Below the pieces are notes generated by a model. That model was given only the letters and a program-made list of their open reading frames with translations. It made no database searches and was not told the DNA's origin. Of a DNA stretch of 64,000 nt, positions 21,880 through 45,898 are shown one piece after another. Numbering within the stretch: the first letter of the stretch is position 1; each line of letters begins with the position of its first letter. The translations under genes and the position numbers were made by a program. Source of the stretch: Candidatus Obscuribacterales bacterium (lineage in GTDB: Bacteria; Cyanobacteriota; Vampirovibrionia; Obscuribacterales; Obscuribacteraceae); NCBI GenBank assembly GCA_019750335.1, contig JAIEOQ010000003.1, forward strand, positions 496,001-560,000, in the 5' to 3' direction.

Positions 21880-21989
21880 GGCGCACCTCCAAATTTCTGC
21901 AATTCTATAATATGATGGCTTTGAACTTTTTATTCTTGACAACGTATTAGATTATGTCGGGACTGAAATCGCCAAGGTGGGGAGCGAAA

Positions 21990-23516
21990 ATGAAGACCGC
22001 AGCAAGTATTTTGGTTCTAGTTAGTGTTTTATCCGCTTTTCCGCAAGCGGACGCCGGTAATATTGCCGCAAATACAGTCCAAACTGATACCGATGCTCGA
22101 ATCACCCATGTGCTAAATCGGTTAACTTTCGGTCCTAAATCAGGTGATTTTGAAGCAATTAAAAAACAAGGAATCGGCAATTTCATCAATAGCCAGCTTA
22201 ATCCTTCAAGTTATCAGCAAGCAACACAAGTAAGCAGTTTTATCGCTGCTCATCCAAGCTTAAATATGGATCCAAATGAGTTGTTCGTTAATTACGAGCT
22301 GCCATTGATTCAAGCTAAGAAAGAAAGCAAAGATAAAAACGATCCCGATATGCGCAAACTGGCAAGAGAAACCGTAATTAAAGTGATTAATGAAGCTAGC
22401 GAAGCTAATATACGTCGTGCTTTATTTTCACCACGTCAGCTTGAAGAGCTACTAACCGATTTTTGGTTCAATCATTTCAATATCAGCAAAGATAAAGCGA
22501 TGGATCGTGTTCTTGTCGGTCATTTTGAGAACAACGCAATTCGTCCTTATGCTCTTGGGCGCTTTCGCGATCTTTTAGGAGCCACGTGCCACCACCCAGC
22601 TATGCTCGTTTATTTGGACAACTGGCAAAATAGTATGCCTGTGGAAAACGAGCGCCAAACTGGTAAAAAGGGACCTAAGCTCGGCATCAACGAAAATTAT
22701 GCTCGTGAGTTGATGGAGCTGCATACACTGGGTGTAGACGGGGGCTACACACAACAAGACGTAATTACTCTGGCTCATATACTCACCGGTTTAAGTATTC
22801 CCCTCCGGCGTGAACGTTTGAATAACTTTGAGCCAAGTCGACAGTATTATCGCTTTTATCCAAGGCGCCACGATTCAAGCAATAAAATATTTCTCGGCAA
22901 AAGAATCGATGGCGGCGGTGAGCAGGAGATTGAAAAAGCACTGGATATACTTGTCGCCTCTCCGGCAACCGCTCGTCATATCAGTTATCAACTTGCCCAA
23001 TATTTTTTGGCTGACACGCCGCCAAAATCAATAGTGGATACTTGTGCTCAAGCTTTCCAGAACTCCGGCGGCAATATAAAAGTCGTATTACAAACCTTAT
23101 TTGCCAGTCCTGAATTTTGGCAACCACAATATGCGCAAAACAAATTTAAGAGTCCCAAACGTTATCTCATTTCAGTTTTAAGAGCGGCTGATATTCAGCC
23201 AACTAATTACGAACCGATTTTCAATTATTTAAAACAAGCCGGACAACCGCTTTATGGCTGTCTAACACCGGATGGCTATAAAAACACTAAAGAAGCCTGG
23301 TTAAATCCCGACGGCTTAGTCAAAAGGATCAGTATGGCTACTTCTATCGGTAGCGGTCGTTTGAAAGGTGCTGCCGGACAAACGCCGAATCCGGTACGTA
23401 TTAAATATGCTCTTAATCATCAACTAAAAACTAATACTCTTGCTTTGTTCAACAAAACACCACCAGGCATGCAAGCTGGATTATTGCTGGGTAGCCCCGA
23501 ATTTATGAAATATTGA
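21990..23516 (+). CDS. exported DUF1800-family protein
   Basis: A 508-residue protein starting at ATG 21990 (GGGGAG upstream) with a signal peptide (TAASILVLVSVLSAFPQADA). It has the DUF1800 signatures VLNRLTFGPKSGDFEAI, LLTDFWFNHFNI and INENYARELMELHTLGVDGGYTQQDV. The function of the family is unknown; it nearly always sits beside a DUF1501 gene, as here (12 nt gap). The pair is widespread in Gram-negative bacteria and presumed to act outside the cytoplasm. Confidence 0.92.
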   Translation: MKTAASILVLVSVLSAFPQADAGNIAANTVQTDTDARITHVLNRLTFGPKSGDFEAIKKQGIGNFINSQLNPSSYQQATQVSSFIAAHPSLNMDPNELFVNYELPLIQAKKESKDKNDPDMRKLARETVIKVINEASEANIRRALFSPRQLEELLTDFWFNHFNISKDKAMDRVLVGHFENNAIRPYALGRFRDLLGATCHHPAMLVYLDNWQNSMPVENERQTGKKGPKLGINENYARELMELHTLGVDGGYTQQDVITLAHILTGLSIPLRRERLNNFEPSRQYYRFYPRRHDSSNKIFLGKRIDGGGEQEIEKALDILVASPATARHISYQLAQYFLADTPPKSIVDTCAQAFQNSGGNIKVVLQTLFASPEFWQPQYAQNKFKSPKRYLISVLRAADIQPTNYEPIFNYLKQAGQPLYGCLTPDGYKNTKEAWLNPDGLVKRISMATSIGSGRLKGAAGQTPNPVRIKYALNHQLKTNTLALFNKTPPGMQAGLLLGSPEFMKY

Positions 23517-23528
23517 AGCAGGTGAATC

Positions 23529-24767
23529 ATGGATCGACGAGACTTTCTTAAAGCAGCTATGTCCGCCTCTTTTTTGAATACACTCCCGCTAAATGGCTGG
23601 ACTGCTGAAACTACAGCTACTGCCGCCAACAAAAAACTAGTAATTGTCTTTTTGCGTGGTGCCGTTGACGGCTTGAATGTGGTAATTCCGGCAGGCGATC
23701 CTCGCTATTATGAAATGCGTCCGAATATAGCAGTGGCAAAACCACGAGAAGCTAACGGTGCTCTGGACTTGGACGGTTATTTTGCTTTGCATCCGTCTTT
23801 AGAGCCGCTTCTAAATTTATGGGGCAAGAAAAAACTTGCTTTTATACACTCATGCGGTTCTCCCGATCCGACCCGTTCTCATTTTGACGCTCAAGATTAT
23901 ATGGAGAGCGGCAATCCTGGAGTTAAATCAGGGACAACCGGCTGGTTAAATCGTCTATTGACCAACCTGCCTGATAATCGTTCACCGGTTCGCGCCCTAA
24001 ATATCGGACCGACCATACCGCGCATTCTTGCCGGGCCACAATCTGTAGCCAATGTCGAACTGAATAAAAATCGAGCTTTATCCATTGATCGCCCGGAAAT
24101 AGCCGAACTTTTCTGGCGGCTTTATGACGATGACCCGATGTTACGAACAGCGTTTTATGAAGGCATTTCCGCTCGCGGCACGATCAATCGCAGCATGAGA
24201 GCAACGGATCAGGCTGAAAGCAAAGAGATGCTTGCTGCCAATCGTGGAGCGTTGCCACCGCAGTCGGCATTCGGCAGACAACTAGCTAACTTGATTCTTA
24301 AAGAACCTAAAACACAAATAGCCTTTCTGGCCTTTGGCGGCTGGGATACACATGTAAATCAAGGCGCCGGACAAGGACAGTTGGCAAATAAACTTTCCAA
24401 TCTAGCCCTTGGCCTTGCAGATTTTTATCAATCAATCAGTGCTATCGAAAACAATGTAACTACAATTGTGATGTCTGAATTCGGACGGACAGTACATGAA
24501 AACGGCAATCGTGGCACGGATCATGGGCATGGAAATGTAATGTGGGTCCTGGGCGGTAATGTAGCCGGCGGTAAAGTGTATGGACGCTGGAACGGCTTAG
24601 CTAACTCAGCCCTATATGAAGACCGTGATTTACCGGTAACCAGCGATTTTCGCTCAGTAATTAGCGCTGTACTTCAGGGTCATCTCAAATTGAACGACAA
24701 TATGCTTAAAAGCGTATTTCCGAATTTTGCTGCCGACAAACAGTTGGAAAATCTATTAAAAGCCTAG
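23529..24767 (+). CDS. DUF1501-family protein with Tat-type signal
   Basis: A 412-residue protein with a Tat-like start (MDRRDFLKAAMSASFL; RRDFLK matches the twin-arginine motif). The DUF1501 features are FLRGAVDGLNVVIPAGD, GGWDTHVNQGAGQG and VVMSEFGRTVHENGNRGTDHGHGN, the last rich in potential metal ligands. DUF1501 resembles the alkaline-phosphatase/sulfatase superfamily, and its activity is not established. It follows the DUF1800 gene by 12 nt with AGGTG before the ATG, so the two form an operon. Confidence 0.92.
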   Translation: MDRRDFLKAAMSASFLNTLPLNGWTAETTATAANKKLVIVFLRGAVDGLNVVIPAGDPRYYEMRPNIAVAKPREANGALDLDGYFALHPSLEPLLNLWGKKKLAFIHSCGSPDPTRSHFDAQDYMESGNPGVKSGTTGWLNRLLTNLPDNRSPVRALNIGPTIPRILAGPQSVANVELNKNRALSIDRPEIAELFWRLYDDDPMLRTAFYEGISARGTINRSMRATDQAESKEMLAANRGALPPQSAFGRQLANLILKEPKTQIAFLAFGGWDTHVNQGAGQGQLANKLSNLALGLADFYQSISAIENNVTTIVMSEFGRTVHENGNRGTDHGHGNVMWVLGGNVAGGKVYGRWNGLANSALYEDRDLPVTSDFRSVISAVLQGHLKLNDNMLKSVFPNFAADKQLENLLKA

Positions 24768-44073: not shown

Positions 44074-44664
44074 ATGCCACCATCGGCAATATCGACTATT
44101 CTGAAAGATTCGGATTTGAGGCGAGCACTTCATGCCGGCGAAATTCGTCGTCACTGTCTTCGCGAAGCTGACAGCAGAGTGATTGATGAGCTAGGTATTT
44201 TTGAAGGCAAATATCGCATGGATGTAGCTGTAGTAAATTCGAGCCTGCACGGTTACGAAATTAAAAGCGCTGCCGATAACTTGGAACGGTTACCATCACA
44301 ACAAGAAAGCTACAATAAAATATTTGACCGCATTGTACTGGTTGCCGACGAAAAACATGTGGAAGAAGCTTTCAAACTATTGCCTCAACATTGGGGTTTG
44401 ATCGCCGCTTCTTGTGTCAGCGGCAAAGTTTTACTAAAAGAGATTTGGCCGGCAAGACAAAATCCTCATGTTGATGCTTACGCTCTATGCCAACTGCTTT
44501 GGCGCGACGAAGCTTTGTCTATTTTGCGCTCACAAAAATTGTCTTTTGGCTTGTGGTCGCAACCGCGCAAACGTCTTTGGCGTACCCTTGCTGAAAGCAT
44601 GGAACTATCAGAGCTTAAAACGATTGTACGCCAGACTTTGAAAAACCGGCAGAACTGGCGTTAG
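44074..44664 (+). CDS. sce7726-family protein (PD-(D/E)XK-like)
   Basis: A 196-residue protein with the sce7726 signature: R-x-D-V-A-V-V-N-x-x-L-H-G-Y-E-I-K-S near residues 48-70 (MDVAVVNSSLHGYEIKSAAD), then LERLPSQQESYNKIFDRIVLVAD. The D … EIK pattern is that of a PD-(D/E)XK nuclease core, which would make it a putative DNase or nucleic-acid-acting protein. Function is not established. Its last 50 bp overlap the end of the IS1595-derived gene on the other strand. Confidence 0.82.
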   Translation: MPPSAISTILKDSDLRRALHAGEIRRHCLREADSRVIDELGIFEGKYRMDVAVVNSSLHGYEIKSAADNLERLPSQQESYNKIFDRIVLVADEKHVEEAFKLLPQHWGLIAASCVSGKVLLKEIWPARQNPHVDAYALCQLLWRDEALSILRSQKLSFGLWSQPRKRLWRTLAESMELSELKTIVRQTLKNRQNWR

Positions 44665-45778
44665 GCGGCAACTTAACTTCTACTGGCGATACATAAGCAA
44701 GAATTTGTTTATAGCAAATCGGTTCAAAATGCCAACACCACTTTAACAATAGATTGCGTTTCCATTTGGGTTTGGCAAGTTCTAACCAATATGCCGCCAA
44801 ATAATTCTGTAAATACTTTCTGCTTACACCGTGAAATTTATTACGAATAAAAGAAATAGCTGCATCAACCAGCTCTTTTATCCCTGCCGAGGCAGCAAAA
44901 GAAGGCTGAGAGAATAGCTTGAGCTTTATTTTAGAAGTCTCTAGCTCAGAGCCCTTTAGCTCAGTGCTCACAGTGTAACGTGTATATCGATCACCAGCCA
45001 AACGCACAGCCACTCCTCTTAATTCCAGCATAGTCAGGGCTGCCGATATTTTATTCACTGGCAGTTTCGCTTTCTGGCAAAGGGTATCTATGTGAATCGG
45101 GTCAGCTGACAGTATGTCATACACCTCTTTTTCACACCGATCAAACTCTATGCCTAGGGACTCTTTTTCTTTGGCTTCAAGAGAGTTGTAGATGTCTTTT
45201 TCGCAATTAGCATCACCCGAAACAGCTGGCACAGCTAACTGTTTCTCCATTTCTTCTTGCTCAGAAAGCGGATGCTCTCTAGCTTTAGTTTCTCGACTAC
45301 GCTTAAAAAATACAAGCTCAAAAAATGACGAAGGCAATGTTTCTCCGACTTCTTGCATATGATTCTGAACAACCATCATAATCTTCTTAAAAATATTGAG
45401 TGCTGAAGATTGAGCAATACCAGCAAATTTATGAAATCTGGACGAGCTGATCACTACCCCGCGTTCCATCAGCCAAATCGCTAATAACCAGGGTCTAGCA
45501 GTTCTAATACGGTTAAAAAATGTACCTCCGGTAAACCACGTTCTTTGATAACATCGTGGACATTTACCTACTCGATCACCATATTTCTTTTCTATCTTCT
45601 TATTCTTACAATAGCGACAACAAAAAACGTTCTCTACTTTAGCTCTTCTGTACAATTCCTCCAAACAATCTTTTTCCGTCGGAAATTTGGCGTTAAACTG
45701 CCTCAAGAGAACATTGAGTATCTCATCGGTAACAACAAGCCCCGAAAACAAATTAAAGTTCAGAGAATTGTCTGACAT
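44615..45778 (-). CDS. IS1595-transposase-derived protein with DprA-like winged helix
   Basis: A 387-residue chimera. Residues about 30-135 match the IS1595 N-terminal region: a zinc ribbon (C54-x2-C57 and C73-x2-C76) and the TGGTFFNRIRTARPWLLAIWLM helix pair. In place of the usual DDE catalytic domain, residues about 211-268 resemble the DprA winged helix (CEKEVYDILSADPIHIDTL … LELRGVAVRLAGDRYTRY). Residues about 308-330 resemble the C-terminal end of ISXO2-like transposases (FHGVSRKYLQNYLA). It is probably a DNA-binding protein rather than an active transposase. GAGGATA lies before the ATG. A 56-bp palindrome sits 64 bp upstream. Confidence 0.72.
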   Translation of the reverse strand: MSDNSLNFNLFSGLVVTDEILNVLLRQFNAKFPTEKDCLEELYRRAKVENVFCCRYCKNKKIEKKYGDRVGKCPRCYQRTWFTGGTFFNRIRTARPWLLAIWLMERGVVISSSRFHKFAGIAQSSALNIFKKIMMVVQNHMQEVGETLPSSFFELVFFKRSRETKAREHPLSEQEEMEKQLAVPAVSGDANCEKDIYNSLEAKEKESLGIEFDRCEKEVYDILSADPIHIDTLCQKAKLPVNKISAALTMLELRGVAVRLAGDRYTRYTVSTELKGSELETSKIKLKLFSQPSFAASAGIKELVDAAISFIRNKFHGVSRKYLQNYLAAYWLELAKPKWKRNLLLKWCWHFEPICYKQILAYVSPVEVKLPPNASSAGFSKSGVQSF

Positions 45779-45842
45779 CAGTTATCCTCAGCTACATACT
45801 ATTTGTACGAGCCAAGAACACAAAAAGTTCAAATAACCACTC

Positions 45843-45898
45843 CACCAAGTGTGTAAAAAGCTAAACCGATATCGGTTTAGCTTTTTACACACTTGGTG
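45843..45898. repeat. perfect 56-bp palindrome, probable bidirectional terminator
   Basis: The two 28-bp halves (45843-45870 and 45871-45898) are exact reverse complements, with no loop. The centre is AGCTAAACCGATATCGGTTTAGCT flanked by A5 and T5, the layout of an intrinsic terminator in both directions. It starts one base past the stop of the AlkD-like gene and ends 64 bp before the IS1595-derived gene. The extra CACCAAGTGTGT arms make it longer than most terminators. Confidence 0.75.

Follow-up and report, generated by a model that had tools for sequence, protein, structure and literature searches.

An open reading frame on the minus strand of the 64-kb stretch of DNA analysed here (the window) runs from an ATG at 45778 to 44615, encodes 387 amino acids with no internal stop, and combines parts of an IS1595 transposase with a DprA-type winged helix, next to a 56-bp perfect palindrome. 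The question raised by this locus is whether such a gene is a plain insertion-sequence copy or a member of a distinct family and, in the latter case, what its product and the palindrome may do together.

Descent of the protein

The earlier note had read the protein as an IS1595-type zinc ribbon with helices, a DprA-like winged helix and an ISXO2-like C-terminal tail, with the DDE catalytic domain missing between the segments, and this anatomy was recovered throughout. The zinc ribbon and following helices span residues of about 24–140 (45359–45709, minus strand), with the invariant cysteines of the CxxC...CxxC pattern at 54, 57, 73 and 76, and the tail spans residues of about 308–334 (44777–44857, minus strand). 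Both segments are matched when the family profile is compared with true IS1595 (ISXO2-like) transposases of the same taxon (L066, E = 1.2e-17), whereas the IS1595 model of NCBIfam, NF033547, matches the protein below its cut-off in two stretches, the better of which is residues 310–330, and the zinc-ribbon model PF12760 gave a weak match to one family member only. In place of the DDE domain, the family carries the winged helix and, at residues of about 150–175 (45254–45331, minus strand), a motif of invariant columns, F-x-x-x-x-CKRSRETxARxHPxxE, which occupies the expected start of the DDE domain and lacks the catalytic Asp pattern. A search of the whole genome with PF12762 (DDE) gave no match over the cut-off, the two sub-threshold matches being tail fragments. 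An AlphaFold model is ordered at about 18–140, 214–267 and 298–334 and contains no RNase H-like sheet; its mean pLDDT of 64 makes it supportive, and not more, on the absence of the domain. A fold search with the whole model against the PDB returned no match at E ≤ 0.001, the weak ones being mostly winged helices, one of them a DprA, and a sequence search of the PDB gave no convincing match.

The sole Pfam match of the protein is PF17782 (DprA_WH; E = 6.1e-14, residues 213–262), within a winged helix of residues 211–268 (44975–45148, minus strand) that is present in all ten paralogues. It is 55% identical to the winged helix of the genome's own DprA. The Rossmann-fold DNA-processing domain of DprA is absent and a zinc ribbon is present, so that the family differs from DprA/Smf in architecture as well as in its many copies. 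In a winged-helix tree built on a small number of columns (59), the family falls on one side of a branch with a support of 95 from 29 DprA proteins of the same taxon which, with the similarity to the host's own DprA, suggests that the winged helix was acquired once, from the DprA type of its own lineage.

That the homologues might be plain IS copies, an outcome against which the earlier note had staked its reading, was rejected: DDE was found in none of them, all copies are intact, they share 40–58% identity with the window's copy, and dN/dS, measured on recent duplicates in one relative (G035), is 0.15–0.23, indicating purifying selection. When flank hairpins and homology ends were examined, the homology of recent copies was seen to stop at about the stop codon and the palindrome had no 3' counterpart; the true IS1595 copies of related genomes showed no upstream palindrome of the family's kind. 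The view that the protein is a domesticated, DDE-less transposase derivative is thus supported.

Paralogues and their palindromes

The ten intact paralogues are dispersed at unrelated places in this Obscuribacterales (Melainabacteria) genome. The family gene was detected in a single taxonomic family, among whose genomes, most of the sampled ones being MAGs, its copy number ranges from 0 to about 20; of the 36 genomes, the host included, roughly two thirds have copies beyond DprA and several hold at least ten. Among 292 genomes drawn from the phylum, the matches listed outside the host genome belong to other taxonomic families and cover the winged-helix part only, and the named records with the gene are Candidatus Melainabacteria/Obscuribacterales. 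Although some regions are shared between genomes, positional orthology of the copies is not claimed, as they group mostly by genome in the tree, which implies that the family amplifies within lineages. No described family with the same organisation was found, and in the literature that was searched no paper brought IS1595 and DprA together in this way; these palindrome-paired genes apparently constitute an undescribed, multiplying family.

The neighbouring sce7726 gene (NCBIfam, 1e-46), which overlaps the family gene tail to tail by 50 bp (44615–44664), had been proposed as a partner. It is present once in the genome, at this locus only, against ten family genes, and does not travel with the family, so that the partnership is not supported.

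The palindrome, in contrast, had rightly been counted as part of the system. The gene's own site lies at 45843–45898, has the core AACCGATATCGGTT and, as single-stranded DNA, folds with −30.6 kcal/mol (z = −14); no other perfect hairpin in the window reaches an arm length of 12. An upstream palindrome was found at all ten paralogues, centred about 45–100 bp before the start codon, with arms of 15–32 bp that are mostly perfect (the copy at L041 is imperfect), a core of AACCGATATCGGTT or AACCGTTAACGGTT and arms that differ from locus to locus. Among the 87 family genes with upstream sequence, taken over all genera, 53 have a palindrome score of at least 10, against a background in which the best score per 400 bp has a median of 6, a 95% level of 9 and a maximum of 14; a detectable palindrome is missing at about a third. 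Nearly all of the 53 are centred on CGATATCG, CGTTAACG or CGAATTCG, and the half-site consensus is AAANNTNAACCGAT. Downstream flanks score near background, except for two looped hairpins in G029.

The arms themselves vary while remaining paired. In 51 palindromes, all four letters occur in near-uniform proportions at distances of 8, 10 and 11 from the centre, and yet these positions are 90–98% paired, compared with 26–27% after shuffling; choosing palindromes by their score guarantees a degree of central pairing, but what is observed reaches well beyond the required part. Recent duplicates in G035 likewise carry symmetric double changes, paired across both arms. The mismatches comprise 11 G.T and 13 A.C, and this lack of strand bias argues for DNA as the paired molecule and against an RNA hairpin. 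Freely varying paired arms suggest either a dimer on a symmetric duplex with drifting specificity or recognition of an extruded hairpin.

An ECF-type promoter and its regulon

Between the palindrome and the gene, the family shares the pattern TGAACTTTTT-N11/12-CGT, represented in the window by TGAACTTTTT-N12-CGT at 45807–45831 (minus strand). In 51 of 64 cases TGAACTTT follows the palindrome and precedes the start codon, nearly always as TTGAACTTTTT-N11/12-CGT, a layout of the ECF-sigma type.

The regulon was delineated by a promoter-pattern search, with a pattern slightly looser in the host genome than the family promoter; comM, yraN, dnaB and xseA were named by eye from the protein sequences, while Vsr, DUF6088, LTXXQ, the sigma factor and comF (as a phosphoribosyltransferase) have Pfam support. 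The host genome gave 34 matches against 5 for the control, and these precede the ten family genes, an ECF sigma gene, comF, yraN, vsr, five DUF6088 genes, an LTXXQ protein and the window's DUF1800/DUF1501 operon. In G008, matches precede comM, yraN, DUF1800, LTXXQ genes and two family genes; with 14 matches against 4 for the control, the promoter evidence is weaker there. Genomes without the family carry the promoter at comM, yraN, the ECF sigma gene (52% identical), dnaB, xseA and DUF1800, from which the family seems to have joined a pre-existing DNA-uptake and DNA-processing regulon. In a few relatives the promoter also precedes dprA, which lacks it in the host genome. The competence label derives from the company kept in this pattern-defined set, where the family shares its promoter with comF, comM, yraN and some dprA genes, and which also contains periplasmic stress-type genes and DUF1800/DUF1501. 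On these grounds, the proposal that the protein is a regulator or linked to DNA uptake is plausible.

The promoter also precedes the ECF sigma gene itself, in the host genome (L259, C13:633843) and in G024 (L302), so that this gene is probably autoregulated; it is the likely regulator of the whole promoter set. Several further members were noted. The DUF1800/DUF1501 operon at 21922–24767 of the window carries the promoter as TGAACTTTTTATTCTTGACAACGT, and the DUF1800 gene carries it likewise in G008 and G001. Two of the five DUF6088 genes (L233, L240, L247, L252 and L261) are nearly identical. In G010 and G024, which lack the family, the promoter is found before genes for small toxin-like proteins and for coiled-coil repeat proteins, and its spacers are often alike (L282, L288, L294, L299, L303 and L305).

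Cognate sites and the role of the family

The pattern AACCGNTANCGGTT has 21 matches in the host genome (reversed control, 1), of which ten lie at family genes, six are solo and intergenic and five, chance-like, lie in or near coding sequence. Carrier genomes hold up to 108 matches and DprA-only genomes 0–1 (reversed control, 0–5). In two relatives, G008 and G029, extra copies of a gene's own palindrome occur within about 20–25 kb of it. In G008, the sites surrounding the four family genes fall in coding as well as intergenic DNA and bear the flanking letters of the respective palindrome, for example CCATATCCGTTAACGGATATGG at one gene and CGTAATCCGATATCGGATTACG at another, and among the 24 ways of assigning sites to genes, the one that gives each gene its own sites scores best; the same test for own-gene specificity on the twelve genes of G029 gave p = 0.0002. 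Local clusters were found neither in the host genome, with one site per gene, nor in G035, and are therefore not universal. An apparent local enrichment of half-sites in the window (8 weak matches, 3.6 expected) was rejected, two of the matches being the palindrome itself.

Taking these observations together, we lean, with somewhat better than even confidence, towards a family of catalytically dead, locus-specific, predicted palindrome-binding proteins of a DNA-uptake regulon. An IS1595 transposase would have kept its DNA-recognition parts (zinc ribbon, helices and tail), lost its DDE nuclease and gained, apparently once, a DprA-type winged helix of its own bacterial lineage. Produced from the ECF-sigma-type promoter common to DNA-uptake and DNA-processing genes, the protein most likely binds the palindrome beside its own gene, as a dimer or via an extruded hairpin, each paralogue having its own cognate sequence, which in G008 and G029 is repeated over the surrounding 20–25 kb. 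The resulting locus-specific nucleoprotein complex may control its own gene, and the winged helix, which together with the promoter points to transformation, may let the complex touch the transformation or recombination machinery at the locus. If this reading holds, what began as a transposase has become a locus-specific DNA-binding family that co-evolves with private palindromes and gathers point-mutated copies of its site around the gene, within a DNA-uptake regulon; protein–site co-evolution and intragenomic amplification would then proceed without a nuclease, a combination that no described system matched.

Simple autoregulation and local chromosome organising would each fit much of the data. 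In the former, which we consider unlikely but worth serious weight, the proteins would do no more than regulate their own genes, with the palindrome as an operator before the ECF-type promoter and the nearby sites as decoys or as a small local regulon, and there would be no link to transformation. The palindrome does lie 5–130 bp upstream of the promoter block, and the paralogue-specific letters at fixed positions resemble specificity positions. However, an operator needs no perfect arms of 20–32 bp of freely varying sequence, 24 of the 42 sites in G008 lie inside coding sequence and not at promoters, and the winged helix in the fusion belongs to the DprA type.

In ParB–parS and related systems, palindromic sites likewise cluster close to the gene, within coding as well as intergenic DNA, and the clusters in G008 and G029 invite comparison with the way in which these work. 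Each paralogue would load at its clustered sites and organise or segregate about 50 kb, which would suit the 6–20 cognate sites, made by substitution, that lie up to about 25 kb from each G008 gene. In G029, four core sites form an array with a 40-bp spacing (L187:9255–9375, on C3), which would also suit such loading; a family gene is about 8.6 kb away, and the sites of the array differ in type from that gene's palindrome. On the other hand, no ParB domain is among the Pfam matches, many paralogues each have their own site sequence, the host genome and G035 lack clusters, and the copy number varies between 0 and about 20 inside one taxonomic family, so that this role is rather improbable.

A selfish element spreading by natural transformation without a transposase is doubtful to a slightly greater degree. 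Here, proteins induced in competence would each recognise their own palindrome, as a hairpin formed on the incoming single strand, together with the cognate sites around it, and the captured winged helix would favour recombination of the gene-bearing DNA.

RAYTs (TnpA-REP) belong to the HUH (Y1) enzymes, and their REPs are dispersed (PMC8266576, PMC6006769); the family resembles them in that a transposase has been domesticated and is linked genetically to palindromic DNA. A REP/RAYT-like element, in which the protein moves palindromes and leaves dispersed copies, would agree with the transposase origin and with palindromes outnumbering family genes in several genomes, a few being solo and intergenic in the host genome. 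Such an element is nevertheless very unlikely: the DDE domain is lost and no HUH domain is among the Pfam matches, there is one 5'-side palindrome with locus-specific arms, and the sites resemble those of the nearest gene and not genome-wide copies. Moreover, the residues at the G008 sites in a photolyase, a HemW-like protein and a formate–THF ligase align without gaps to PDB homologues, so that these three sites arose in place by substitution and REP-like insertion is ruled out for them; a fourth, in MoeA, has a length difference of three amino acids nearby and is ambiguous on this point.

That the palindrome is a bidirectional terminator insulating the gene and nothing more is scarcely credible, even though the window's copy folds strongly directly after the stop of an AlkD-like gene, since its 8–14-bp core is conserved across genera, locus-specific cognate copies lie inside coding genes and the genes upstream of the palindromes have either orientation.

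Two of the solo intergenic palindromes of the host genome (L147:2956 and L151:2970, corresponding to C4:23355 and C11:376469) have arms of 19–21 and neither a family gene nor an ECF-type promoter match. At another locus, in G008 (L158, C5:29000–48900), seven core sites occur where no family gene was detected nearby, and these are possibly the remnants of a family gene that has been lost.
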